From assembly GCA_963669155.1 (NCBI GenBank), contig OZ022588.1, forward strand, positions 14,962,835 to 15,026,834: DNA of 64,000 nt, given 5' to 3'. How positions within the stretch are numbered: the first letter of the stretch is position 1; the number at the start of each line of letters is the position of its first letter. The stretch comes from Arbacia lixula (lineage: Eukaryota > Echinodermata > Echinoidea > Arbacioida > Arbaciidae). This document shows positions 572 to 56,668 of the stretch, one piece after another. Made by a program: the position numbers and the translations under genes. Under the pieces are notes generated by a model, which was given only the letters and a program-made list of their open reading frames with translations, did no database searches and was not told the origin of the DNA.

Positions 572-6840
<6,269 letters not shown>

Positions 6841-40675: not shown

Positions 40676-43600
40676 ATGGTAATGGAGTTTGTTCAAAATC
40701 TACAATCGCTGGCACAAGCTGTGAGATGTGCAGAATCTCACATTTTGAGTCGAGGGGAAAAGATAAATTTTCTCAACCAGACAGTGTTAGCTGTGAGCAA
40801 TATTTTAGACATTGCAGTGGATTCAGGTAATGGAGAATATGGTCTTCATGCTGATAATGTCATGAATGTGGAAAATCAAAGACGGGGACAGAGTGGGGAG
40901 TTGACAACCAGTATCGTCCAACTCCACATGCAACGTCTTGCATTTAAAGGGAATGATGCAACCATTACAAGTTGGCCTCATTTCTCCATGGATGCACATC
41001 ATCACATCTCCAAAACTCTGCCAACATGTACATCTACTGATGAAAGGGTTGTTTCCAGAGCTTTTACTGACATGGCATCTGTTCTAGAAGATCTGTGTGT
41101 GGATGAGTGGATGCCGTGGTCTGTGACAAGTGATCACTCGTGTCAAGAGCAAGAAACAAATGTATGCAAGAGTGGATGTGAAGCAGGTGATCCGTTTCGG
41201 AAAGAGTGTGATGTTGACGAGCAGAAGATGATGCAGCAGCTGCGAGCTGTTAGAGACAGATGCAAGAAACTGGCAGAGTGTGACTCTGAGAGGGGCAAAC
41301 TGCGGTCTTGCAAAAGAAATCTCGAACAAACCAGAACTAATGAAAATCAGAGTGCAGGAATACAAGCTGAAACGAGAGCAGAGAGGAGAGAAAGTCTTGG
41401 CCATTGCACTGCTGACGAATGGATTTGGAGGGTTCAAGAAAGACTGAGTGGCTATGAAGGTGAATGCCAAACTTCACAGGGGGAAAGATGCAGAATTTAA
41501 AGGCATTTGGAATAGATTTGAAAGATTCTAGCCAGTGATAGTATGGGTGAATAGGGAAATGGGATAATACAAAAGTACAGCATGTATCAAAATAATCGAT
41601 GCCTACGAGCACTGAAAACACAGCCATCAAATTGTGTGGGGGGTTTTTTTGTGTGTATTATCAGCATTTGATATGACCTTCCATCACTTTGTTTTCCTCA
41701 CACACAGATGGTGTCAAGATGCTCTTGTCTGAGCAGAGGAACTGGCTGAATGACGAGTGGATTGAAACGTTAGAAGCGAATCAAGAAATGCTGGTAGATC
41801 ACAGGTACAAATGAATGTGTGGTTTACACTACAGCTAAAAGGAATTGGCATAGGGAAAGGGAAGGAGCCGCAGTTTTAAACAGCGGTATATTTTGTCCAG
41901 TTCAGCATGAAACACGATGCTTTATTAGCCTAAAAATCCTGTTCCATGCTGAACTGGACAAAACATACTGTGGTTTAAAACTGAGGCTCCTTCCCTTTCT
42001 TCCCTTTCCCTTTCTGCCAATTCCTATGAGCAGTAGTTTAATTGAAAATCTCCTTGTAAACTTATAGATTATGTCTCCATTGACATATGCCAAAAGTAAA
42101 AGCAGTATTTGTGCCAATTTGAAGAGTAATACCTTAATAGCAACATTTATAGTGCTTTGCCAATTTGACGAAATTACATTTTGTAAATATTTTTGGTTGA
42201 ATTCTTACTGGACGCTACAATTAAACTCAAAAGGAAGGATAACCTTTTTGGGGGAAATATGTATTTAAGTTAAAAAAAATGTTTGATACCTTGAACCTTC
42301 ATGGTGCTTCATCAATTGATTTAATGGATGGTTGAATTGCTTGATTGAATGATTAATTGATGGAGGGATTGGTACAATTTATAAGTTGACTGAAACTGGA
42401 CCTTTTCCTGAAACTTGATCCCAGAACAGTACAGAGGCTCTTTGAGACAGGATTGGAGTTCTTGGATGAAAGCGCAGCATCTAAAACCAAGAACAGTGAA
42501 ATGAATCACACAAGATTCCTGAAGGTATTTTTTATTTTAATTGAATGACTTGTCAGAGTTTTGTGTAATGCCTCCTCCATTGCCTGTTAGGCCTTTTATT
42601 TCAGGGGATATTGTTTTTTATTAAGTTGATTTAATCAAAATATTGAAAATCTTCTCTATAGGAAGTGATGTAATTATGATATGAAGAATGATTGATAAAT
42701 TACAATCGAAGTGTACCTGGAATCCCCATAATACTTGCATATTGATGGGAATTTTATTGATTGAAAGAATGTTGCATTACAATCATAGAATCAGATAATT
42801 CCACAAGGAAACTGATTTTGTTCTGCAATACAGTGAGAATATGGATGTTCTCAAAATATTTTAACCAAATTTTTGCATGATTCTAGCAGTTAATTTGTGG
42901 TTCACATAATTTCTGTTTCACTCATATTTTACATAATGTCTCTACAGCTTACTTCCCAGTGTTTTGCTGCTCTCCCTCTAACTCTACAATGCAAGCAATT
43001 CCAATGGTTGTGGGAGCAGCCAAATGGACCTGCATTGTTCCAGGGCAAAGGCATCGTGGACTACAAACAAGAGCTGACACAAATTTTCAACCGCCTGGTG
43101 ACAGGGTCTGAGGAGAGCCAAGTTATTGAGGTAGAGTGAGGATATGAGAGGTCATCAAAGATGAAAAGAATGATTGGTTGATGCATTAACCCTATCTAGC
43201 CCGGGGGGGGGGCAAAAACAGCCCCCCCCCCTCGACATTTTTCGCAATAAATTTGTAACGCGAAAAGATCACGCCGCGACGTTTCATGACTTTTTTCCTT
43301 CAAGTCTCACGCAACTTTTAAGACCAAATTTGCGACGCGGGGGTACACGGTTCCGAAGTTACGTAACATTTTGTACGTGCATGTCAGACCCAAAATTGCT
43401 CAAAAACGTGATTTCATGTACAAATCCAATGCAAATTCTGTATCTAGCCAAAATTCATAAATGTATCATTATATCTATTTTTACTGATGAAAAACAATAG
43501 ATTTCATGTTATTTATGACTGAAATAGTGTTGCTAACAATTTCCATCGAAAAAACAATGAAAAACATAAAGTCGAAAAAACAAAGAAATACAAAAGAAAT

Positions 43601-46600
43601 TCGAAAAACAATAAAATACATAAGAAAAACTTTGATATTGCCATTTTTTAAAAGCCTAATTTGATAATAATCCTAAGAAGAGTGTCTGGACTGATATCTA
43701 GCAGTTTTGGGGCTATATTTAAAGATTTACAACCAAATTATGATTTTTATGCATTTAATTAGCATAATTAATCAATTAAAAAAAAAATTGAATAATTTTG
43801 GTGCAAGTGACAATTGAATTGCGGAGATTACGGCATCGGTGACGTACGTGCCAATTTTCGTCGCGATCGCGCGATCAACGGTCGAGATCTTAGGGGGGGG
43901 CTGTTTTTGCCCCCCCCCCGGGCTATGCGATTTCAAAATAGCCCGGGCTATATAGGGTTAAGATTTGCTGTAATGTTAGGGGAAAATGAAAGACAAGGAA
44001 GTCTATGCTAACTACGCTAAGTGTCGAGGCCCCACTTATGACTTGATTTGTATGAGGTAATATATGAAACAATATATTTGAATGGAACAATGAAAAATAA
44101 ATAGAAACACAATTTTGCAGAATACAAACATACATATAGGATTTAGTTGTGACCCGAACTGACCCCAGAGCCTGCCTAAGACTGGCCCAATGTAGCAACA
44201 CAGTGTTTTGTGTGCAACAAAGTGTGTATTATTCCTGTAACAGTGCTGCAGAGCCCATGATCACAAGCATTGCTTCTTTTGAGTCCAACATATTTCTTAA
44301 TTTGACTCTGTTAATGATCTGAATATTACTGCTAAATATTTTGATTTATTTTAATGTTTTAACAAATGATATCTCCCTTGAAAATCACACAGAAAAATAA
44401 TTTCAAATAAACTGATGGACACACAACTAAATAATATAAGCTATAATATAAGCTAAATACTAGTAAGGGTACAATGTACATGCTTATTACACTTGTCCCC
44501 GTTTTCAGATAGCAGAGGAGCTATGTGGCATTGCTCTGCACAGTCCTGCCTGCACCCTCAAGAGGGCCATACAGGAAGGTGTCTCCAGCACTGATGCTGG
44601 TCTGATCATATGTAGGGTGAGTATGCTAGGAACTCTGCCAGCAATGCATTTTGAACATACACAACAGCTCCAAGGTATTGGCATAGGGACAGGGAAAGGG
44701 AAGGAGCCGCAAATTATACCACGGTATGTTTTGTCCTGTTCGGCATGAAACATGATGCTTTAGCCTAAAAAGCATAATGTTTCATGCTGAACTGAACAAA
44801 ATATACCGTGGTTTAAAACTGTGGATCCTTCCCTATCTTCCCTTTGCCTATGCCAGTTCCTTTGAGCTGTAGTGTATGATACACCCATTTTCCATTCATG
44901 AGCACTCTATTGGGCATACTTTTGTCGTGATAGGGTGGTTGTGAATTCAAATCTCACCGTGGAGCTTGTGTTCAACAGGAGCCTACATGTAAATTGACAC
45001 TACTGCTCTCCTCCCATGCTCAGCTCATATAGTTTACTTATGTGGCTCAATGGAGCAAGTGAAGGCACAGATCAATGCATTCAGGGCAAGGGATGAGAAT
45101 TTTAGAAAAATCATAACTTTGTCATCATTTGTGGAATTTTGCTGAAACTTTCCATCAATTTAGATACTCTTTTATATTTATGGTCTTATTCAGCCTTGTT
45201 TTTAGGGTTTTATTCTTAATTGATACAGGTGCTGAGTTTAGAGGAGGTCATAAATCCACAATCAAAAGCTTGAATTCTATGCAATACCCACTCAGGTGTT
45301 GCGGTGCATCCCTTTCCTGTTGCATCTAGGAGAGGGCGCCAGACCCTATTTCCTTGTGGAGCTGCAGAGATTTGTGACAGGCCTGGCTGATGAGAACCCC
45401 TCTGCTGCAGAGGAGCTCAATATACTCTCGTTCTTTGATGAGCTCTTGAAGGTACTGTCAGCAATTCTTGGACATTTTAAACTCCTCATGAAAGTGTATC
45501 ATTTTGTGAATTATGTCAGGGGTTAGTGCAGGTGCACTGAGTTTTTTTTTTATGTACTTGTATGAACAAAATTGCCACTGTATAATCAATCACTTTCTTG
45601 GAGAATAGCATCCGTGGTTAACTAATTTTTTTTTTTTTTACAACACTCCTTGTTTCTCACTTTTTTTTTCCTTCTTATTTTTATAATTTCATTGATCCAT
45701 TGTTCCTTATATGTGAGCTTTCTAAGTTGAACTTTGAATTTATTTGTATACTAATTATTAATTTTTCTTTGTTATGTAATGCTTAAAGGACCAAACCCTG
45801 GGCTTCTTTTTACTTAGTAATAATAATGCCCCCCCTCCCCCAAATTATTTTTTGGAATTCTTGAGACAAATGCGAATATTAAATTATTCCTCTTTTGACC
45901 TCGCCTTTGCTCTTGTCAGCCATATCCATTACCAAGACACCCCGGGTCCAATGTCACCTGCCCATCCCTCCTGACCCCTCTGGAGCTGGCTGGTTCCTGT
46001 ATCTGGCCCTTCCTCACCCCTACTGTGGACAATCACCCCCTGGTTGCCAAGGTTACGTCCCTCCATCCCCAGGAGCGCAACGGTTTGGGTGGAGGAGGAG
46101 AGAAGGATGCTCCACTGTATTTTGTGTTAAAGCTCCTTGATCTGGTGCTGGACTATGTGATTGTGTCAAGCAGCAAACAGGTGATTAGTCATGTGATTGT
46201 GTCAAACAGCAAACAGGTGATTAGTCATGTGATTGTGTCAAGCAGCAAACAGGTGATTAGTCATGTGATTGTGTCAAGCAGCAAACAGGTGATTGGTCAT
46301 GTGATTGTGTCAAGCAGCAAACAGGTGATTGGTCATGTGATTGTGTCAAACAGCAAACAGGTGATTAGTCATGTGATTGTATCAAGCAGTTAACAGGAGA
46401 TTGGTCATGCGATTGTGTCAAGCAGTTTACAGGTGATTAGTCATGTGATTGTGTCAAGCAGCAAACAGGTGATTAGTCATGTGATTGTGTCAAGCAGCAA
46501 ACAGGTGATTAGTCATGTGATTGTGTCAAGCAGCAAACAGGTGATTAGTCATGTGATTGTGTCAAGCAGCAAACAGGTGATTAGTCATGTGATTGTGTCA

Positions 46601-49600
46601 AGCAGCAAACAGGAGATTGGTCAGGTGATTGTGTCAAGCAGCAAACAGGTGATTAGTCATGTGATTGTGTCAAGTAGGACACAGGTGAGCAATCATGTGA
46701 GTGCATTAAGTAGAGAACAGGTGATTAATCATGTGATCATGTCAAGTAGTAAATAGATGGTTAGTTGTGATCATGTCAGGAAGAACCAGGTGATATATCA
46801 TGTGATTGTGCCACGAAGTGATTCCTTTGTGACACCCATCTCAAACTTGCCTGGTACTTCGACTACAGCCCGACTTGCCAGTCATGCACAGACCTGTAAA
46901 CTGTCTATGGCCATATTCAATACTCTCAGACACAGAGACCATCTGACAAGCGTCTGTGCTTTTGGACTAGTGACAAAAATACACAAGGGCTCAGGGCAAT
47001 GCCCCGTAGAGCAAAAATCCTTCCTCATTCAGACTATCTTTCCTAATTTTTGCATCTAGGGCTCATCGCTGTTCGGCCGCACCGACTGGGTGAGCACGAT
47101 GCTGTGCCTATGCCAGCTACTAGACCAGGGCAACAGTGTTGGTGAAGAGAGCAATGGGCGACATTCAGTGCCAGTCCAAGAGCTCATCACAGGGCTCGTA
47201 TGGAAGCTGGCCAACTTCACCAAGAATCTAGAGAAAGGTACACATCAGTGCAGCTCATGGCACAGGGCTCAGCTAAGCCATAAATCGGCTCACCTGGAGT
47301 AACCAAAATGCACCAATAAGCAAGCAACTGAAATTCCAACTTGTGATTCAGGTTTTTTTTAGTTGTGTTTTGACAAATGTTTGTACTGGAATTGAAGAGT
47401 TTGACATGCTCATTTAACCCTAATCAGGGCCATGTTGTATGTAGGTTTTCAATTATTGTAATACCGCATGTGCCTAATGAGGATGATGGGGTCAAATGTC
47501 ATCTAGGGGTCAAAAGGTCAAGTAATATGAGGCCATTTCATTACAAAAATGTTGAAGTTTCCATTTGACTTGCTCTCATTTTTTTCTATTTCTGCATCAA
47601 TTGTGATCACACTTGGTACAAATGATCCTTGGGTAATAGCATGTGTGTTGAGGATGATGAGGTCAAAGGTCATCTCGGCACCATTTTAAATATTTGAGAA
47701 AAAAAAACTTAGCATCCTTTATTTGTTGTTTGTTTTAAATGTTTTAGGCAAGTGTTTTTTAGATAAACGCATTTGACTTGAAGGGTAAGTGGAGGAAATT
47801 TTTCTCACACCCTGTAGCATGACAGTATGTACCCAATGAGGTATCTACATAGTTTACATAGAATAAATCTAAAATAGAACAGCAAGTGATCTCTCTGGCC
47901 ATGTATTTTAAACTTTACAGATGCTCTGATTTGTTTTCACTTTTTGAAAGCAGTCTCGTAATCAGGAGTTTACAGGAGGTAATAAAGTACCTAATATGGC
48001 TGCTTTACCTAAGACAGGATACTTGTAATGGGAAAAGCGCTTTATGAGAGGTTTTTATCGTTGACGTGCTAGAGAACCTGTCCCTCTGTGTGGCCTGGCT
48101 GCTAGAGGAGACGTCAGACATGCACTGGACCATCAGACTCACACTCGATGTGCTCTTCTCAGATGTCAGTGCCCGGTGTGTGGAGGTGAGTGGTACAGAT
48201 GGAGCGCAACATTGTCTCAAATTATCTCAACTTGCTAAATTCATTAAAGTCAAAATGGCGAAATTTAAGACATAAATGAATTCAAAACTTCTTATAGGCC
48301 TATGTTGTAAAATGCAATACGTAGCTTCCACGAATACTGGTAAATAAAGGAAAACATATGTGTATACTGTGTATACAAGTTACTACAGTGTGTATTTCTC
48401 ATACCGCGAAAGGGGCAGACAGAAATACTAGATAAACTTAAAACTTCAAATCATGTTAACCCTCATTGTGCAGCAGTGTCAACCGCTTCCTTATGAGTTT
48501 ACCTGTTGGTACAGGCTGCTTTTTGTCTCGCCCACCGGAGGTGAAGGCGAGACTAAGGGATCCAAATGGCGTCCGTCCGTCGTCCGTCCGTCGTCCGTCA
48601 CAAATGTTAAAGTTTACCTGCAAGACTCTCTTATGATCCATAACTTGGCAACTGTTACAGCAATGGCAGCCACACTTGGTTGATAGAAGCACTAGGGGTA
48701 TCTTCATGTTATGGTGTTGTCAGAGGTCATGTGATGATGTCAAAGGTCATTTGAGGTCATATATTAAAGAGTATGTGCAAGACTCTCTTTTTCTATGTTA
48801 AAGTTTACCTGCAAGACTCTCTTTTGACAAATAACTTCACATAGGTTGCTTGGATTACAACCTAACTTGGGTCATAGATGCACTGGGGGTACCTTCATGT
48901 TATGGTACCGTTGGAGGTCACAGGATAAGGTCAAAGGTCATTTGAGGTCATACGTTAAAGTTTACCTGCAAGACTCTCTTTTGACAAATAACTTCACATG
49001 GGTTGCTTGGATTACAACCTAACTTAGATCATAGATGCACAGGGGGTACCTGCATGTTATGGTACCGTTGGAGGTCACAGGATAAGGTCAAAGGTCATTT
49101 GAGGTCATACGTTAAAGTTTACCTGCAAGACTCTCTTTTGACAAATAACTTCACATGGGTTGCTTGGATTACAACCTAACTTGGGTCATAGATGCACTGG
49201 GGGTACCTTCATGTTATGGTGCCGTTGGAGGTCACAGGATAAGGTCAAAGGTCATTTGAGGTCATACGTTAAAGTTTACCTGCAGCCTCTATTGTGCAAC
49301 TGATTATCATCCTGTTTTGTCTTTGTCTAATCTAATAGAACTTGGTGGAGGCTTTTTATTCCATCTCAAAGAAGGGGGAAGGTGGGGGAGGGGGAGTAGA
49401 TAGAGGAAGTAGCATTGCGTGAAATAGCCCTTCTCATTTATGGAATGTTACATTCTATGGCAGATATTTCACAATCAGCCAGGGATACAATTCTTTTGCG
49501 TAGCAACGGAGATCGCGATATTTCTGGTTATTTTCGCAAGTGGGCGAGACACAATATTGCTAATGCCTTGTTTAAAAAAGCAAAAGCCGAGGAAGCATTG

Positions 49601-52600
49601 GAGATGCTATTGTAGCGCTGTACTTAGTTTCTAAAAGACAACTTTATGCTTCAGTCCGCCATGACACTGCAGGATATTTGCATACTTCTTTATTTCAAGG
49701 TTAGGCTTGAGAGAGTGTAACAAAAAACTGATGAACTTATAACATCTTTGATGACTAACCTGGTATTAAAACTTTCCAGCTCGAGCTCTGTCATTGAAGG
49801 GGATCGGAAAATGATACTTGGGGATCAAAAAGGCAGATTCATGAACTTCATCAAGACCTTTACAAATGTATGTCCCTGTATTAAAAAATGGTTGCATCAA
49901 ATTATCCTTATTGGTACAGGACATCAACACGTACATAGGGGAGATATATGGCTCCCTCAGCCAGCCTTCCTCCGTGCCACAGGCGACATCTGTACCCTTG
50001 CACCTGACGTGGGTGGCCTCATTAGTAGCCTCCTTCCAAGCTTTCCGGATATCTCCTCGGCTGACAAAGATTTTCATCCAGGTACATGCATGTAGGACCA
50101 GTACAGTTGTATGAGATTTGTGTGTCTAAGTCATGAACAAATGTGATTGGTACACGGAAGACATGGTAGCCCATTTGCAAAAGTCATGGAACTCAGCAGG
50201 TATCAGCGCTTTACCCAAAGATAACATGTATGAAATCTCACAGTCATAGTGTCATGCATGTGACTTTTTTTATGCCTCCGCCACGAAGTGGCCGGAGGCA
50301 TTATGTTTTCGGGTTGTCCGTCCGTCCGTCCGTCCGTCCGTACGTACGTATGTCCGTCCGTCCGTACGTACGTATGTCCGTCCGTCCGTCCGTCCGTCCC
50401 GAATCCGTTTAGGCAATATCTTGAGAGCCGTGAACTAGATTTGCTTCAAACTTGGTACATGTGTATATTGCATAAAACCAATGAAGTGTGTAAAATTGGG
50501 GTCAAATCTGATTGAGGTCAAAGGTCAAAGGTCAATGAACATTGTGAAAAATTGCCAAAATTGACCTTTTTCACAATAAATCCAAATCCAAGGATACAAT
50601 TCTCATCAAACATGGTACAAAGATGGATCACTACTTGGAGGTATACTGGTGATATTTTGGGTAAAATTCCTGAAAGTCTAGAGGTCAAAGGTCAATGAAC
50701 TTTGCCAAAATTGGCTAAAAACTGCCCCAAACTTTATATTTTTCACAATAAATCCAAATCCAATGGTACATTACCAACTAAACATGGTGCAAAGATGGAT
50801 CACTACTTAGGGTGAGACTGGTGACATTTTTGGTGCAATTTCTCAAAGGTCAAAGGTCAATGCACTTTGCAAAAAAATTACCTAAAAATTGCCCCCAAAG
50901 TGATATTTTTCAAAGTAATTCCAAATCCAATGGTACATTACCAACTAAACATGGTGCAAAGATGAATCACTACTTGGGGGTAGACTGGTGACATTTTTGG
51001 TGCAATTTCTCAAAGGTCATAGGTCAAAGGTCAATGCACTTTGCCAAAAAAATTACCTAAAAATTGCCCCCAAAGTGATGTTTTTCAAAGTAAATCCAAA
51101 TCCAATGGTACATTACCAACTAAACATGGTGCAAAGATGGATCACTACTTGGGGGTAGACTGATAACATTTTGGGGGAAATTTCTCAAAGGTCAGAAGTC
51201 AAAGGTCAATGCACTTTGCCAAAATTGGCCATTTTTCACATTGAATCCAAATCTAATGATTCAATTTAAACAAACATGGTACAGAGATGTGTCACTTCAT
51301 GAAGGTAGACTGGTGAAAGTTTGGGTAAAATTCCTGAAAGGTCAGAGGTCAAAGGTTTATGAACTTTGCCAAAATTTGCTGAAAATTGCCCCCAAATTGA
51401 TACTTTTCACAATAAATCCCAATCCAATTATGCATTTCAAGAAAACATGGTACTAGAATCACAAGGATACAGCGATGGTTTTAGACAGACTGGTTAGATT
51501 GGAAGTCAAAGAAGTAAGAGGTCAAAGGTCAAATGAACATTGCCAAACTTTGCTAAACATAGAAAGACAGAATAAATGGTATTTTCATTTCACATAGGAA
51601 CTGGAACATTTCCAACCAAACAGACAGATTTTCTGAAAATAATCTAAATAGAGCTAGCAAAGAGGCGGAGGCATATTTATCGACTGTGTGGCAGTCGAAT
51701 TGCTCTAGTTTTTTTTTACTCTGCTACTCTGACACAGAAAGAATCAACAATTGAAACGATATATAAAGCTATGTACAAGTTTAATCTTCAAATTTTTGCA
51801 GTTTGTTAACCACACAGAATCAATGCAATATAGAAACAAATTACAAATACGTAGCTTAATCATCTTTAGTGACTTGAAGGGTGATCGCTCTGGCGTAGCA
51901 TCGATGCTGCCTGCAATCCGCGTCGTCGTCGTCGTCATCCACCTGGTCCCTTGACTCGTCCCTCGGAATCCTTGACTTGGTCACTCAGCTAGACTCTACC
52001 ATACTGGCGGTCCTCCCAGCTCCCTGACCTTCATGAACAGTCCTTGCTCCCCCTGTAGACTTGACCAGCAATGCCCGACTCCACCCGACAGCGACTTGCA
52101 AAACCCCTTGAAGAAGTAATATGTGCTCTTAAGGTCTCTGGTCTATAGGCTACAGGAACCACTAGGATTTTGGAAGACCCGCTGAAAACCTGCTCAAAGG
52201 CAGTTTCCAGTTCTATCATTGGGAGGGAAGGTCGTACGCAGTATGGTCTTCCATCTTACGAGATTTTTACAACAAAAACTTACCTGCAAAAGGGCTTTAT
52301 GAGGGAGCTCTTTCTTTTCTTCATATATTATGGTATATTCAATAATGATAAATGTTGCTATTATTTTTAATGCAGAACTTGCCAAGAGACCTGCGTGCAA
52401 GACTGTCCTCCTCGTGTTGGGATTTCTACTGGGCCATCTGCTTGGCTCTGTCCCAGGTCCTCCCACATAGCACCAGCCACGAGTGGGAGAACGTCCAGCA
52501 GGCTGTGGAGCTGTTGGTGGGCGAGGGACTGCTGCACGTTTCATACACCTCTCGTTTCTTGACCAGCCTTCCCATGTGTGACTTGACCTGTAAGATTTGA

Positions 52601-55336
52601 TACCTGCAGCCTCAATCTGTGTTTGTTTGATGACAGTGTGCACAAAATGCTTCTCCTTTGTAATTACTCAAAGGATTTTCAATTGTTAAACCCTCTATGC
52701 GCCATTTGGGCACAATTAATACACGCAAATCCCATAGAGCAGCATTTTACCTCCCGCACAAGCGGTTAACATGGTGTAACTCTCCACTTGTATTGAACTT
52801 GTACACAGCAGTTTAAAACTTGATTTGCTTTACTTTGTATTTCAATTCATAAGTTATTATTTTTTGCATGATTCTCCAAAGTTGCCTTATTTTCAAAGTT
52901 GGCCATTTAATCATTCTGCTTGTTTTAAATATTACACTGAAAAAAATATCTGTACTCACTGAAAAAAAAAAAAAAATCTCTATTCACTGTGAAAGAATTA
53001 TCTGCTTTTTATTCATATTTTCAAGTTCTCATAAGTTTGTGATTCAAGATGACTTTCATTGAATTGATGTGATTCTCCATTTGTGAATGGTTTTGAGTTG
53101 ACTGATACTGTGAGATCTAATGAATTTGTACCCATTTTTATGCCCAAGATTCAGATGTTTTTGTTTACGCCCCCCCCCCCCCCCCCCCATTTCAGCCTTG
53201 CAGCACCCTTTACAGTTGAGTCAAGTCTTGCTGACGACCATCCAGCTGCTGAGCCGGCCAGAGTGTGTCAGTCAGCTGTCCGCAAAGAGATGGCAACACA
53301 TCACAAGAAATTATGCCCACATCACAAAGGTAGTCAGTCTAGGATTTGATGGTCTGGGCATTGACAGTCCAAAATTCCACATTCCAAATGTGTCTGCTGT
53401 TCTAAAATCTTTGTGAGAACAATAGAGGTCAACCTTTAACCTTTAACAACAGAGGTCAACCTTAGCTTTTAGTATAGATAGTGCGTGATACCCTGATGAG
53501 CTGCAGATCGAAAAGCTACCTTATCCAACATGTTACTTTGTAAAGCAATTTGGAATTTGGAAATTTGGAAAAATGCCGCCGCCAAGAAGTGGCCAGAGGC
53601 ATTTTGTTTTCGGGTTGTCGGTCTGTCCGTCTGTCCGGAATCCATTCACGCAATATCTTGAGAACTGTTAACCTGATTTTCCTCAAATTTGGTACATGTG
53701 AGTATTGCATGAAACCAATGAAGTGTGTAAAATAGGGGTCAATTCTGATTGAGGACAAAGGTCAAACATCAATGAAAATTGCCCAACCTTTTTCATAATA
53801 TATCCACATCCAAGGATGCAATTCTAATCAAACATGGCACAGAGGTGGATCACTACTTGGGGGTAGACTGGTGACATTTGTGGTAAAATTCCTGAAAGGT
53901 CAAATGGCAATGAACTTCACCCAACATTGGCTAATTTTACACAAACTTGATGCAAGGATGGATTTAGATGAGGTTAGATTGGAAGTCAAAGAAGTAATAG
54001 GTCAAAGGGCAATGAACATTGCCAAACTTGGCTAAACTTGGAAAAACAGAATAATATATTTTCATTTCACATCGGAATTCAATGATAAGTTGCCCACCAA
54101 ACATACAAGTTTTCTGAGAATAAATATAAAGATAGCTAGCAAAGAGGCAGAGGCATATTAATCAACTGCGTGGTAGTCAAATTGCTCTAGTTTAGGTCAT
54201 CAATCAATCAATCATCAATCAATCAATCAATCAATCAAAACCAATGCTTTGATGTTTTGGTACTAGAATTAGATATCTATCATCTTGTTGCGAGGTCTCA
54301 TGTTTCTGTAATTCGAGAAAAATGCAATTAATTAATCCATCGCACAAAACATTGGCTATCTCGTTGTTCTGCGCATTTGTTTTGCACGTCTGCAAGATCA
54401 ATACGCGTACGTTATAGCGATCTATCGTGATAGTTAGTATTGCTTCGCACGCTCGCTTGAAATTCCATGCTATAATGTGTACACATGAAGCTCGCGTGCT
54501 GCGTAGGGCTGCACAGTACATAGTACTTGCATTTTCATTATCCGCCATATTGAGAGTCACTCACGATAGATACTGTTTCCGAGTTCGAAGTTGCTATTTC
54601 ATTTGCTGCTTGTGCAGCTGAATTCTCGCAGTTTAGCACACATACACTGTATTACAGAAAATGTCTGCTCAGTGTGCAAGCCCCCCTTCTTGAACGAACT
54701 TCGCTGTTCAAGTTTTCAAGCTCTAATGATTCCCTAGCAATGTAGAAATAAATTCAGGATCTCAAACTTGTTTTGTATGTTCATTTGAGATATGTCTTTG
54801 ATATAAAGAGAGTTAAATTTCTGCCCGGTGGTACCCTTTAAGGCTATAATTTTTTTTATTATTTTATGTAGATATTTCGAATATTTGGTGCAAGGCTTAT
54901 TGAAGTTACCCTCTGATGAAACTATAAATGTTATGATTGTTACAACTGTGTCATTGATAAGAGTGTCGCTTTAAATGTTTTTCAATTTCAACAGGACATT
55001 CTCAATTCTGCAATGGAGTGTCAGGCAACCAGATCAACAGACTTTGCTGTACTCTTTCTGATTGGCCAGCTCTTCTGCCAATCATGTGAGGTCATCACCT
55101 GCATGCCCGTGGAGAGTGGGGAGCAGATGTTTGTGTGGTGCCTGGAACTCTTGATGAGAATGGATGACGTAGTCAATGACTGCGGCAATGTCGATGGTGG
55201 GGGCGAAGGCGATGCGCACAGAGAAAAGAAGACTAGCTTTGATACAACACACATGACCAGATCGGTCCAATCAGTCGCAAATCTGGAGCAGAAGAGAACA
55301 CTTGAGCAAAAAATAAGTGCATTGTCTTTACTGTAA
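40676..55336 (+). CDS. GEMIN4: Gem-associated protein 4 (SMN complex subunit)
   Basis: Exons: 40676-41459, 41708-41804, 42425-42524, 42948-43130, 44509-44616, 45296-45451, 45920-46180, 47060-47237, 48073-48185, 49920-50081, 52376-52589, 53196-53329, 54995-55336. They total 2832 bases, 943 residues (human 1058). Gemin4 is a helical scaffold of the SMN complex, which loads Sm proteins on snRNAs. Matches to remembered human sequence: LSEQRNWLNDEWIETL (human ASEKKWAFSDEWVACL), TVQRLFETGLEF, LCLCQLLDQ, CVAWLLEETSDMHWTIRL, FYWAICLALSQVLPHSTSHEW, GEGLLHVSYTSRFL, and the C-terminal RTLEQKISALSLL (human RQTLLQKMSSF). All exons keep one frame. The N-terminal 260 residues are diverged. The start could also be ATG 40682. 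Exon 7 may run on into the minisatellite that follows. The matches are dispersed but collinear from the centre to the last residues. Confidence 0.85.
41832..42032. mobile_element. Palindromic MITE (family P), copy 3
   Basis: Near-complete hairpin in GEMIN4 intron 2: CAGCTAAAAGGAATTGGCAT to GCCAATTCCTATGAGCA. The arms contain AGGGAAAGGGAAGGAGCCGC and its complement, with the turn at GATGCTTTATTAGCC. Confidence 0.85.
43186..43961. mobile_element. TTAA-flanked MITE with GC-run ends
   Basis: The ends TTAACCCTATCTAGCCCGGG and CCCGGGCTATATAGGGTTAA are complementary. Just inside, poly-G/poly-C runs around GGCAAAAACAG and CTGTTTTTGCC are also inverted. TTAA at both ends suggests a piggyBac- or Kolobok-type duplication. 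The interior is AT-rich and non-coding; part of it is shared with 5875-6060. Located in GEMIN4 intron 4. Confidence 0.8.
44665..44869. mobile_element. Palindromic MITE (family P), copy 4
   Basis: Hairpin from CAGCTCCAAGGTATTGGCAT to GCCAGTTCCTTTGAGCTG in GEMIN4 intron 5, with the same central GATGCTTTAGCCTAAAAAGC turn as copy 1. Confidence 0.85.
46157..46755 (+). repeat. 36-bp minisatellite seeded by the end of GEMIN4 exon 7
   Basis: The last coding bases of exon 7 (GTGATTGTGTCAAGCAGCAA then ACAG) plus the donor start GTGATTAGTCAT form a 36-base unit repeated about 17 times, with little variation in the first dozen and decay at the right end. Because 36 is a multiple of three, the frame continues as a 12-residue repeat (VIVSSSKQVISH) for about six more units, until TAA at about 46391. 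Every unit renews a CAG|GTGATT donor-like junction. Confidence 0.92.
47430..47690. repeat. Fragment of the GGTCAAAGGTCAT repeat family
   Basis: Two partial units containing ACTTGCTCTCATTTTTTTCT, CTTGGTACAAATGATCCTTG and GTCAAAGGTCAT match the array at 58946-59490. Located in GEMIN4 intron 8. Confidence 0.65.
48524..49572. mobile_element. TGTCTCGCCCAC element with 156-bp tandem array, copy 1
   Basis: It starts TGTCTCGCCCACCGGAGGTG, continues with a GTCCGTCC microsatellite and has about four units of a 156-base repeat (GTTAAAGTTTACCTGCAAGA ... AAGGTCAAAGGTCATTTGAG). It ends with a 290-base unique tail containing GTGGGCGAGACA, the complement of the start. The same structure recurs at 55427-56668. 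In GEMIN4 intron 9. Confidence 0.85.
50271..51712. mobile_element. ATGCCTCCGCC element with diverged internal repeats, copy 1
   Basis: It opens with a hairpin (TATGCCTCCGCCACGAAGTG then GCCGGAGGCAT) and a TCCG/TACG microsatellite. It continues as a series of about 150-170-base units with AATCCAAATCCAATGGTACA, AACATGGTGCAAAGATGGAT and AGGTCAAAGGTCAATG. It closes with GAGGCGGAGGCATA, the complement of the start. Non-coding; in GEMIN4 intron 10. Confidence 0.82.
53170..53188 (+). repeat. Poly-C run forming the acceptor tract of GEMIN4 exon 12
   Basis: Nineteen consecutive C bases are followed by ATTTCAG and the exon start at 53196. The run is the only pyrimidine tract for this acceptor. Confidence 0.85.
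53569..54194. mobile_element. ATGCCTCCGCC-type element, shorter copy 2
   Basis: The opening (GCCGCCGCCAAGAAGTGGCC then AGAGGCATTTTG) and closing (GAGGCAGAGGCATATTAATC) match 50271-51712, but the internal array is reduced and more decayed. In GEMIN4 intron 12. A short AATC microsatellite follows. Confidence 0.8.
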
Positions 55337-55426: not shown

Positions 55427-56668
55427 TGTCTCGCCCACCGGAGGTGAAGGCGAGACTAAGGGATCCAAATGGCGTCCGTCCGTCGTCCGTCCGTCGTCCG
55501 TCCGTCGTCCGTCGTCCGTCACAAATGTTAAAGTTTACCTGCAAGACTCTCTTTTGACAAATAACTTCACATGGGTTGCTTGGATTACAACCTAACTTGG
55601 GTCATAGATGCACTGGGGGTACCTTCATGTTATGGTACCGTTGGAGGTCACAGGATAAGGTCAAAGGTCATTTGAGGTCATACGTTAAAGTTTACCTGCA
55701 AGACTCTCTTTTGACAAATAACTTCACATGGGTTGCTTGGATTACAACCTAACTTGGGTCATAGATGCACTGGGGGTACCTTCATGTTATGGTGCCGTTG
55801 GAGGTCACAGGATAAGGTCAAAGGTCATTTGAGGTCATACATTAAAGTTTACCTGCAAGACTCTCTTTTGACAAATAACTTCACATAGGTTGCTTGGATT
55901 ACAACCTAACTTGGGTCATAGATGCACTGGGGGTACCTTCATGTTATGGTGCTGTTGGAGGTCACAGGATAAGGTCAAAGGTCATTTGAGGTCATACGTT
56001 AAAGTTTACCTGCAAGACTCTCTTTTGACAAATAACTTCACATAGGTTGCTTGGATTACAACCTAACTTGGGTCATAGATGGACTGGGGGTACCTTCATG
56101 TTATGGTACCGTTGGAGGTCACAGGATAAGGTCAAAGGTCATTTGAGGTCATACGTTAAAGTTTACTTGCAAGACTCTCTTATCACACATAACTCATCAC
56201 ATGTTGCTACAATGGCAATCAAACTTGGATGATGGATGCACTGGGGGCACCTGCATGTTATTGTGCTGTAAGAGGTCACATGATAAGGTCAAAGGTCATT
56301 TGAGGTCACACATTAAAGTTTACTTGCAAGACTCTTGGTGAAGGCTTCCTAACTTGTGCACAGAAGACAAAGTTTACTTCGCCTCTATTGTGCAACTGAT
56401 TATCATCCTGTTTTGTCTTTGTCTAATCTAATAGAACTTGGTGGAGGCTTTTTATTCCATCTCAAAGAAGGGGGAAGGTGGGGGAGGGGGAGTAGATAGA
56501 GGAAGTAGCATTGCGTGAAATAGCCCTTCTCATTTATGGAATGTTACATTCTATGGCAGATATTTCACAATCAGCCAGGGATACAATTCTTTTGCGTAGC
56601 AACGGAGATCGCGATATTTCTGGTTATTTTCGCAAGTGGGCGAGACACAATATTGCTAATGCCTTGTT
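55427..56668. mobile_element. TGTCTCGCCCAC element, copy 2
   Basis: Same start, GTCC microsatellite and 156-base units (about five), and same unique tail as 48524-49572; the tail is nearly identical between copies. It begins 90 bases after the GEMIN4 stop codon, so it probably lies in the GEMIN4 3' UTR or just after it. Confidence 0.85.

Follow-up and report, generated by a model that had tools for sequence, protein, structure and literature searches.

Which splice donor is used when an exon ends in a long row of identical donors, and does the choice matter for the protein? This question is raised by a stretch of 64,000 nucleotides of the sea urchin Arbacia lixula (assembly GCA_963669155.1, contig OZ022588.1, positions 14,962,835 to 15,026,834 of the forward strand; the window in the following, with positions counted from its first letter), in which the 3' end of an exon of GEMIN4 is repeated together with its splice donor as a 36-bp minisatellite. 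Gemin4 is a member of the SMN complex, which builds small nuclear ribonucleoproteins (snRNPs). The original prediction had proposed that use of the first few donors could yield Gemin4 isoforms differing in length. We regard it as likely that the array is instead a passive donor-capture minisatellite, which is spliced mainly at its first donor, with 46180 as the last exon base. In any case, identical donors in a row are a natural experiment on the choice of the spliceosome among equal sites.

The assignment of the gene to GEMIN4 is borne out by sequence similarity along the protein, because the spliced downstream part of the gene model scores 236 against human GEMIN4, whereas none of 300 shuffles exceeded 64. 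The human query was, in all alignments, a sequence typed by hand. With tblastn it gave four matches on the plus strand in the same order (E 9e-5, 0.18, 0.30, and 3.4), one of which is significant alone. Donors were scored with a position weight matrix (PWM) of donor frequencies and with U1 duplex energies. The exon end and the array comprise the following features, in which a slash marks the splice border:

46073 to 46180, plus strand: GEMIN4 exon (exon 7 of the original prediction), provided that the first array donor is its end; 108 nt, starting and ending in phase 0, acceptor CCCCAG/GAG, open frame, donor CAG/GTGATT; its last 24 bases are unit 1
46155 to 46810, plus strand: 36-bp minisatellite, from Tandem Repeats Finder and the unit listing
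46178 to 46366, plus strand: six identical in-frame CAG/GTGATT donors upstream of the stop, from the donor scan
46391 to 46393, plus strand: in-frame TAA in unit 7, from the translation; use of a donor 3' of it gives a product with a premature stop
46430 to 46726, plus strand: eight more CAG/GTGATT donors downstream of the stop, from the donor scan
46682 to 46690, plus strand: strongest array donor, CAG/GTGAGC, downstream of the stop (PWM 7.04, -11.1 kcal/mol)

The array starts inside the 3' end of the exon and was found by Tandem Repeats Finder with a period of 36, 18.3 copies, 89% matches, and a score of 981; such an array is far above chance expectation. Its unit, GTGATTGTGTCAAGCAGCAAACAG/GTGATTAGTCAT, consists of 24 exon and 12 intron bases, and 17 units are counted from 46157 in the register of the original prediction, whose description of the repeat is thereby confirmed. 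Units 1 to 6 and 9 to 14 are almost identical, units 7 and 8 have changes in common, and units 15 to 17 are degenerate. The array sequence is found at a single place in the genome, both by a DNA search skipping very common words and by an exact-pattern scan, and a single full-length match was obtained with the flank downstream of it. The unit covers the start of the intron and the end of a coding exon predicted from homology and splice sites, and the copies hold a donor that is usable by score.

CAG/GTGATT occurs 14 times, six times before the TAA (last exon base 46180, 46216, 46252, 46288, 46324, and 46360) and eight times after it (46432, 46468, 46504, 46540, 46576, 46624, 46648, and 46720). 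All but one of these are in register, the exception at 46624 being the other GTGATT of a unit. A GT at the donor place is lacking in units 7, 13, and 17; in the 14 remaining units a GT donor stands in register, as CAG/GTGATT in 13 and as CAG/GTGAGC in one, their usability being judged by score only. Variant donors are CAG/GTGAGC at 46684, CAT/GTGAGT at 46696, and CAG/GTGATA at 46789. According to the donor scan, all array donors including the variants have the phase of the exon, so that the remaking of equivalent donors in one reading phase, as originally proposed, holds. CAG/GTGATT has a PWM score of 4.50 and a U1 pairing energy of -8.2 kcal/mol, which is above the mean of 14 natural donors of GEMIN4 and BiP that were located by hand (2.72 and -7.3); four of these 14 are higher on PWM and three on pairing. 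A PWM score of at least 4.50 is reached by 48 of the 3646 GT sites of the scanned plus strand, 16 of the 48 being in the array, and the 7.04 of the donor at 46684 by four of the 3646. Ten of the 16 array donors with a PWM score of at least 4.5 are downstream of the TAA, including the two highest (46684 and 46696). All eight U1 loci that were read start with ATACTTACCTG.

GEMIN4 is not the only gene of this genome with such an array. Four pattern scans of the genome for runs of three donors (CAGGTGATT, CAGGTRAGT, and MAGGTRAGT triples) were compared to controls with the pattern read backward. The CAGGTGATT triples gave 12 matches at four places, eight of them in the GEMIN4 array, and none in the control, and the CAGGTRAGT and MAGGTRAGT triples gave 18, 53, and 78 matches compared to 15, 110, and 96 in the backward-read controls, whose counts simple repeats may inflate. 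Together the four scans led to 19 separate places and, in addition, to five places that belong to a single 57-bp repeat family. The flanks were read at 18 of the 19 places, including the window, and in eight of the 19 the first donor marks the end of an exon that has protein support. Besides GEMIN4 these are:

C7:21665000-21671000, array at 3155 to 3693 of this locus, minus strand: guanylate cyclase beta-1-like exon (HNOB E 2.1e-4, below the Pfam cut-off; guanylate cyclase beta-1 in PDB, 1.7e-8); period 42, 12.6 copies, following and resembling a 25-residue exon end
C13:23079152-23083444, minus strand: torsin-1A-like exon (torsin-1A in PDB, 1.5e-11); array of about 4 kb with 68-bp units holding AAG/GTGAGT, in two runs of matches
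C5:172901-174931, plus strand: fn3-type exon (fn3 E 7e-4, below the Pfam cut-off); 52-bp spacing, at least 31 donors in the locus read
FH2 exon (FH2 E 1.2e-14); array spacing 56 bp
pirin exon (pirin E 1.3e-7); array spacing 76 bp
LRR exon (LRR E 2.6e-6); array spacing 68 bp
CYRI exon (CYRIA-B E 2.3e-28); array irregular

The spacings of the pirin, torsin, fn3, and a coiled-coil array derive from the positions of the scan matches, and that of fn3 also from reading the locus. By script alignment the repeat takes in the exon end in FH2 and LRR (33 of 34 bases each) and less well in guanylate cyclase (25 of 34), and for pirin, torsin, and fn3 the similarity of the unit to the exon end was assessed visually. 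In the guanylate cyclase array the later donors, CAG/GTAAGT, look stronger than the first, CAA/GTAAGT. Three further places (C12:1602k, C13:11048k, and C2:6048k) resemble exon ends but have no family support and were therefore left outside the supported count, as were two unsure cases (C1:54413k and C10:18791k), four unclear ones (C3:9393k, C2:39175k, C29:174k, and C335), and two of low complexity (C10:20958k and C4:4788k, the latter judged from the matched letters alone). The 57-bp family, which is not among the 19 places, looks like a mobile element in the three of its five flanks that were seen.

In seven of the eight supported arrays the use of the next donor would break the protein, GEMIN4 being the sole exception. 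A stop would be met after one intron base in torsin and in guanylate cyclase, after 9 in pirin, 15 in LRR, and 42 in CYRI, and the spacings in FH2 (56 bp) and fn3 (52 bp) would shift the frame. Expression of these seven genes therefore requires that the first donor prevails, and it is because of these parallel arrays and of viability that we infer the same commitment for GEMIN4. Accordingly we picture a minisatellite that would have arisen at the 3' end of the GEMIN4 exon with the splice donor being copied along. The spliceosome would then pair the exon mainly with the donor at 46180 and the later copies would be removed with the intron, so that most copies are probably silent, and the array may persist since its duplication is nearly silent. 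Donor arrays at the exon ends of the other genes would have been born in the same way. Minor products might still be made, in which donors 2 to 6 would add 12 to 60 residues in frame, while donors past 46391 would lead to a premature stop. Copy number, here seen in one copy of the array in one assembly, likely varies between individuals if the array behaves like the comparable repeat of human CBS treated below.

What other rules of choice would mean for the gene can be seen from a toy model with six donors before and ten after the stop, in which the occupancy was varied. At an occupancy of at least 0.2, productive mRNA does not exceed 8.2% when the win goes to the occupied donor furthest downstream, and it amounts to 76-100% when it goes to the one furthest upstream; between 0.02 and 0.1 it is 20-34% and 41-58%, respectively. 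Gemin4 has been called essential in both flies and mice (PMC6385987), and a downstream preference, leaving no more than 8.2% productive GEMIN4 mRNA at an occupancy of 0.2 or more and 20-34% at 0.02-0.1, is hard to square with an essential gene. There are, however, several points that speak against a dominant first donor in a passive array. Among competing donors that are occupied simultaneously, preference is stated to go to the downstream one (PMC3798272), and the GEMIN4 array holds its stronger donor (46684) further downstream. The donor triples were, except for CAGGTGATT, no more frequent than their controls, and thus these scans, which moreover favour strong donors, show no surplus of donor arrays as a class. 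Finally, 11 of the 19 places are without a supported exon, and the use of the seven other exons is suggested by homology and splice-site sequence.

The best surviving alternative, although an unlikely one, is that several of the first six donors are truly used and that GEMIN4 isoforms exist in steps of 12 residues, with length differences between alleles. The prerequisites are present: the six donors are identical, in frame, and each above the mean of the natural donors, and donors 2 to 6 would add their residues without a change of frame up to the TAA, as the original prediction had stated. One extra unit even lifts the score against human GEMIN4 from 236 to 242, but longer extensions lower it, and the match of the array-encoded residues does not stand out from that of random residues (the first eight are equalled or surpassed by 86 of 200 random stretches and the first twenty by 22 of 200). 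The open frame of the array is not beyond chance either. A unit length divisible by three is a one-in-three event, and because a single founder of 12 codons had no stop its exact copies are free of stops too. The next donor being in frame in one of eight supported arrays needs nothing but chance, so that keeping the frame is not a sign that isoforms are designed. Substitutions are spread evenly over the codon positions (12, 14, and 13), and the donor window ranks only 13th of 36 rotations in conservation, so that neither codon positions, nor donor conservation, nor residue matches point to selection. The AlphaFold model of the contiguous exon and array open reading frame consists of strands only, was obtained from a single repetitive sequence and is not trusted, and it had no match in PDB at E 0.001 or better. 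Functional length isoforms, as originally envisaged, are thus not supported by the residues, the codons, or the donors, and seven comparable arrays persist although their next donor is out of frame or stopped.

It is much harder to imagine that the array serves a feedback on U1, in which plentiful U1 would lead to the use of donors behind the stop and to decay of the mRNA, and scarce U1 would let the productive donors win. The role of Gemin4 in snRNP biology and the surplus of strong donors behind the TAA would fit. There is also a precedent in the 5' splice site cluster of U1-70K, which acts via decay, and in the tandem minor-class sites of the U11-48K and U11/U12-65K pre-mRNAs, which activate a 3' splice site (PMC3798272). 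However, the U1-70K sites are conserved among vertebrates according to the same source, whereas the array described here is known from one genome and its donor columns are not specially conserved. The loop is very unlikely because like arrays are found in genes such as pirin and torsin, and in those of CYRI and guanylate cyclase. None of these four is known to have a role in snRNPs. The further-reaching idea that the array is a sensor of free U1 tunable by copy number, in which occupancy of the ten strong donors behind the stop would lower Gemin4 and hence snRNP assembly, as a negative feedback with a gain set by array length, is most improbable. Equally, there is very little probability that the exon ends at 46156 (TAT/GTGATT) and the array is wholly intronic, because this donor, albeit in phase and albeit the residues of 46157 to 46180 add nothing against human GEMIN4 (236 with or without them), scores a PWM of -0.47 and -1.5 kcal/mol and is thereby below all 14 natural donors on both measures.

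The architecture of a donor-capture minisatellite is known from human CBS. Its 31-bp variable number of tandem repeats (VNTR), c.1444_1467+7(16_21) at exon 13/intron 13, consists of 24 coding and 7 intron bases in 16-21 copies (PMC2630376), and a higher copy number has been reported to lower CBS activity (PMC5188458). Both repeats thus take 24 bases of the exon end and the first intron bases and provide a donor per copy, in similar copy numbers (16-21 compared to 17-18). They differ in gene, in the number of intron bases (7 and 12), and in that 31 is not a multiple of three, by which downstream donors in CBS shift the frame. Polymorphism is proven for CBS, while GEMIN4 has the in-frame unit and related arrays elsewhere in its genome, at the ends of other exons. 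The new element is the recurrence at exon ends across one genome, which we have not met in print in a narrow literature search. In CBS 844ins68, a duplication of the intron 7/exon 8 junction, one junction copy is likewise strongly preferred and the mRNA is normal, but this is a single duplication at an exon start (PMC2630376). The U1-70K cluster resembles the GEMIN4 array in its U1-binding donors, in belonging to a gene of snRNP biology, and in a stop that makes the alternative product a target of decay; in contrast, it activates a 3' splice site through three sites, is conserved in vertebrates, and is not described as a minisatellite in the account of it (PMC3798272).

Sequences containing AGGT have a role in intron gain by tandem duplication. 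The tandem copies of a CAGGT sequence in that process (PMC4974935) resemble those of the GEMIN4 array, but there a new intron arises, whereas the array lengthens an existing one.

Such rows of donors are held by at least seven further genes whose exons can be recognised, and only the first donor keeps the protein in all seven. If the first donor is indeed used, there would be a strong commitment to it in native genes, contrary to the stated downstream preference (PMC3798272). GEMIN4 is the case in which other donor choices would appear as protein-length variants. The choice can be tested without new sequencing, given the public RNA sequencing data of A. lixula (PRJNA642021 and PRJNA302797; PMC11310861).

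The remaining exons of the GEMIN4 model, all on the plus strand, are:

42948-43130, 44509-44616, and 45296-45451, plus strand: upstream exons, from splice sites and frame; those further upstream (40.6-41.8 kb) are candidates
47060 to 47237, plus strand: next exon (GSSLFGRTDW...), phase 0 start, from the acceptor CATCTAG/GGC and the alignment to human GEMIN4
48049-48185, 49920-50081, 52376-52589, 53196-53329, and 54995-55336 (with the stop), plus strand: downstream exons, from tblastn and the spliced model

A GEMIN4 intron contains a dispersed repeat (47458-47728) that has about 39 other places with 85-88% identity among 40 scored of 2166 candidates. A 157-bp unit, nearly the same in both cases, forms one array in a GEMIN4 intron (48797-49284) and another just 3' of the gene (55527-56335), both near CGTCCGT runs. 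The gene at 1027-6837 on the plus strand, which by its translation we take to be BiP/HSPA5-like, supplied natural donors for the comparison. Elsewhere in the genome, a long tandem array of matches to U1 small nuclear RNA with a spacing of about 1.25 kb (C4:9425734-9470883) holds 37 of the 42 U1 matches scored, out of 8919 first-look candidates. At C335:1693-2600, tandem copies of a longer segment with an exon-like stretch (MGFRGKTPEAHALCLIEVTFMNFAK) and a donor adjoin a 41-bp donor array. A mirror case at an acceptor is found beside C17:6829480-6829870 (minus strand), where a TTTGCAG array reaching up to 6830304 ends at the start of an exon that is presumably SRCR-like.

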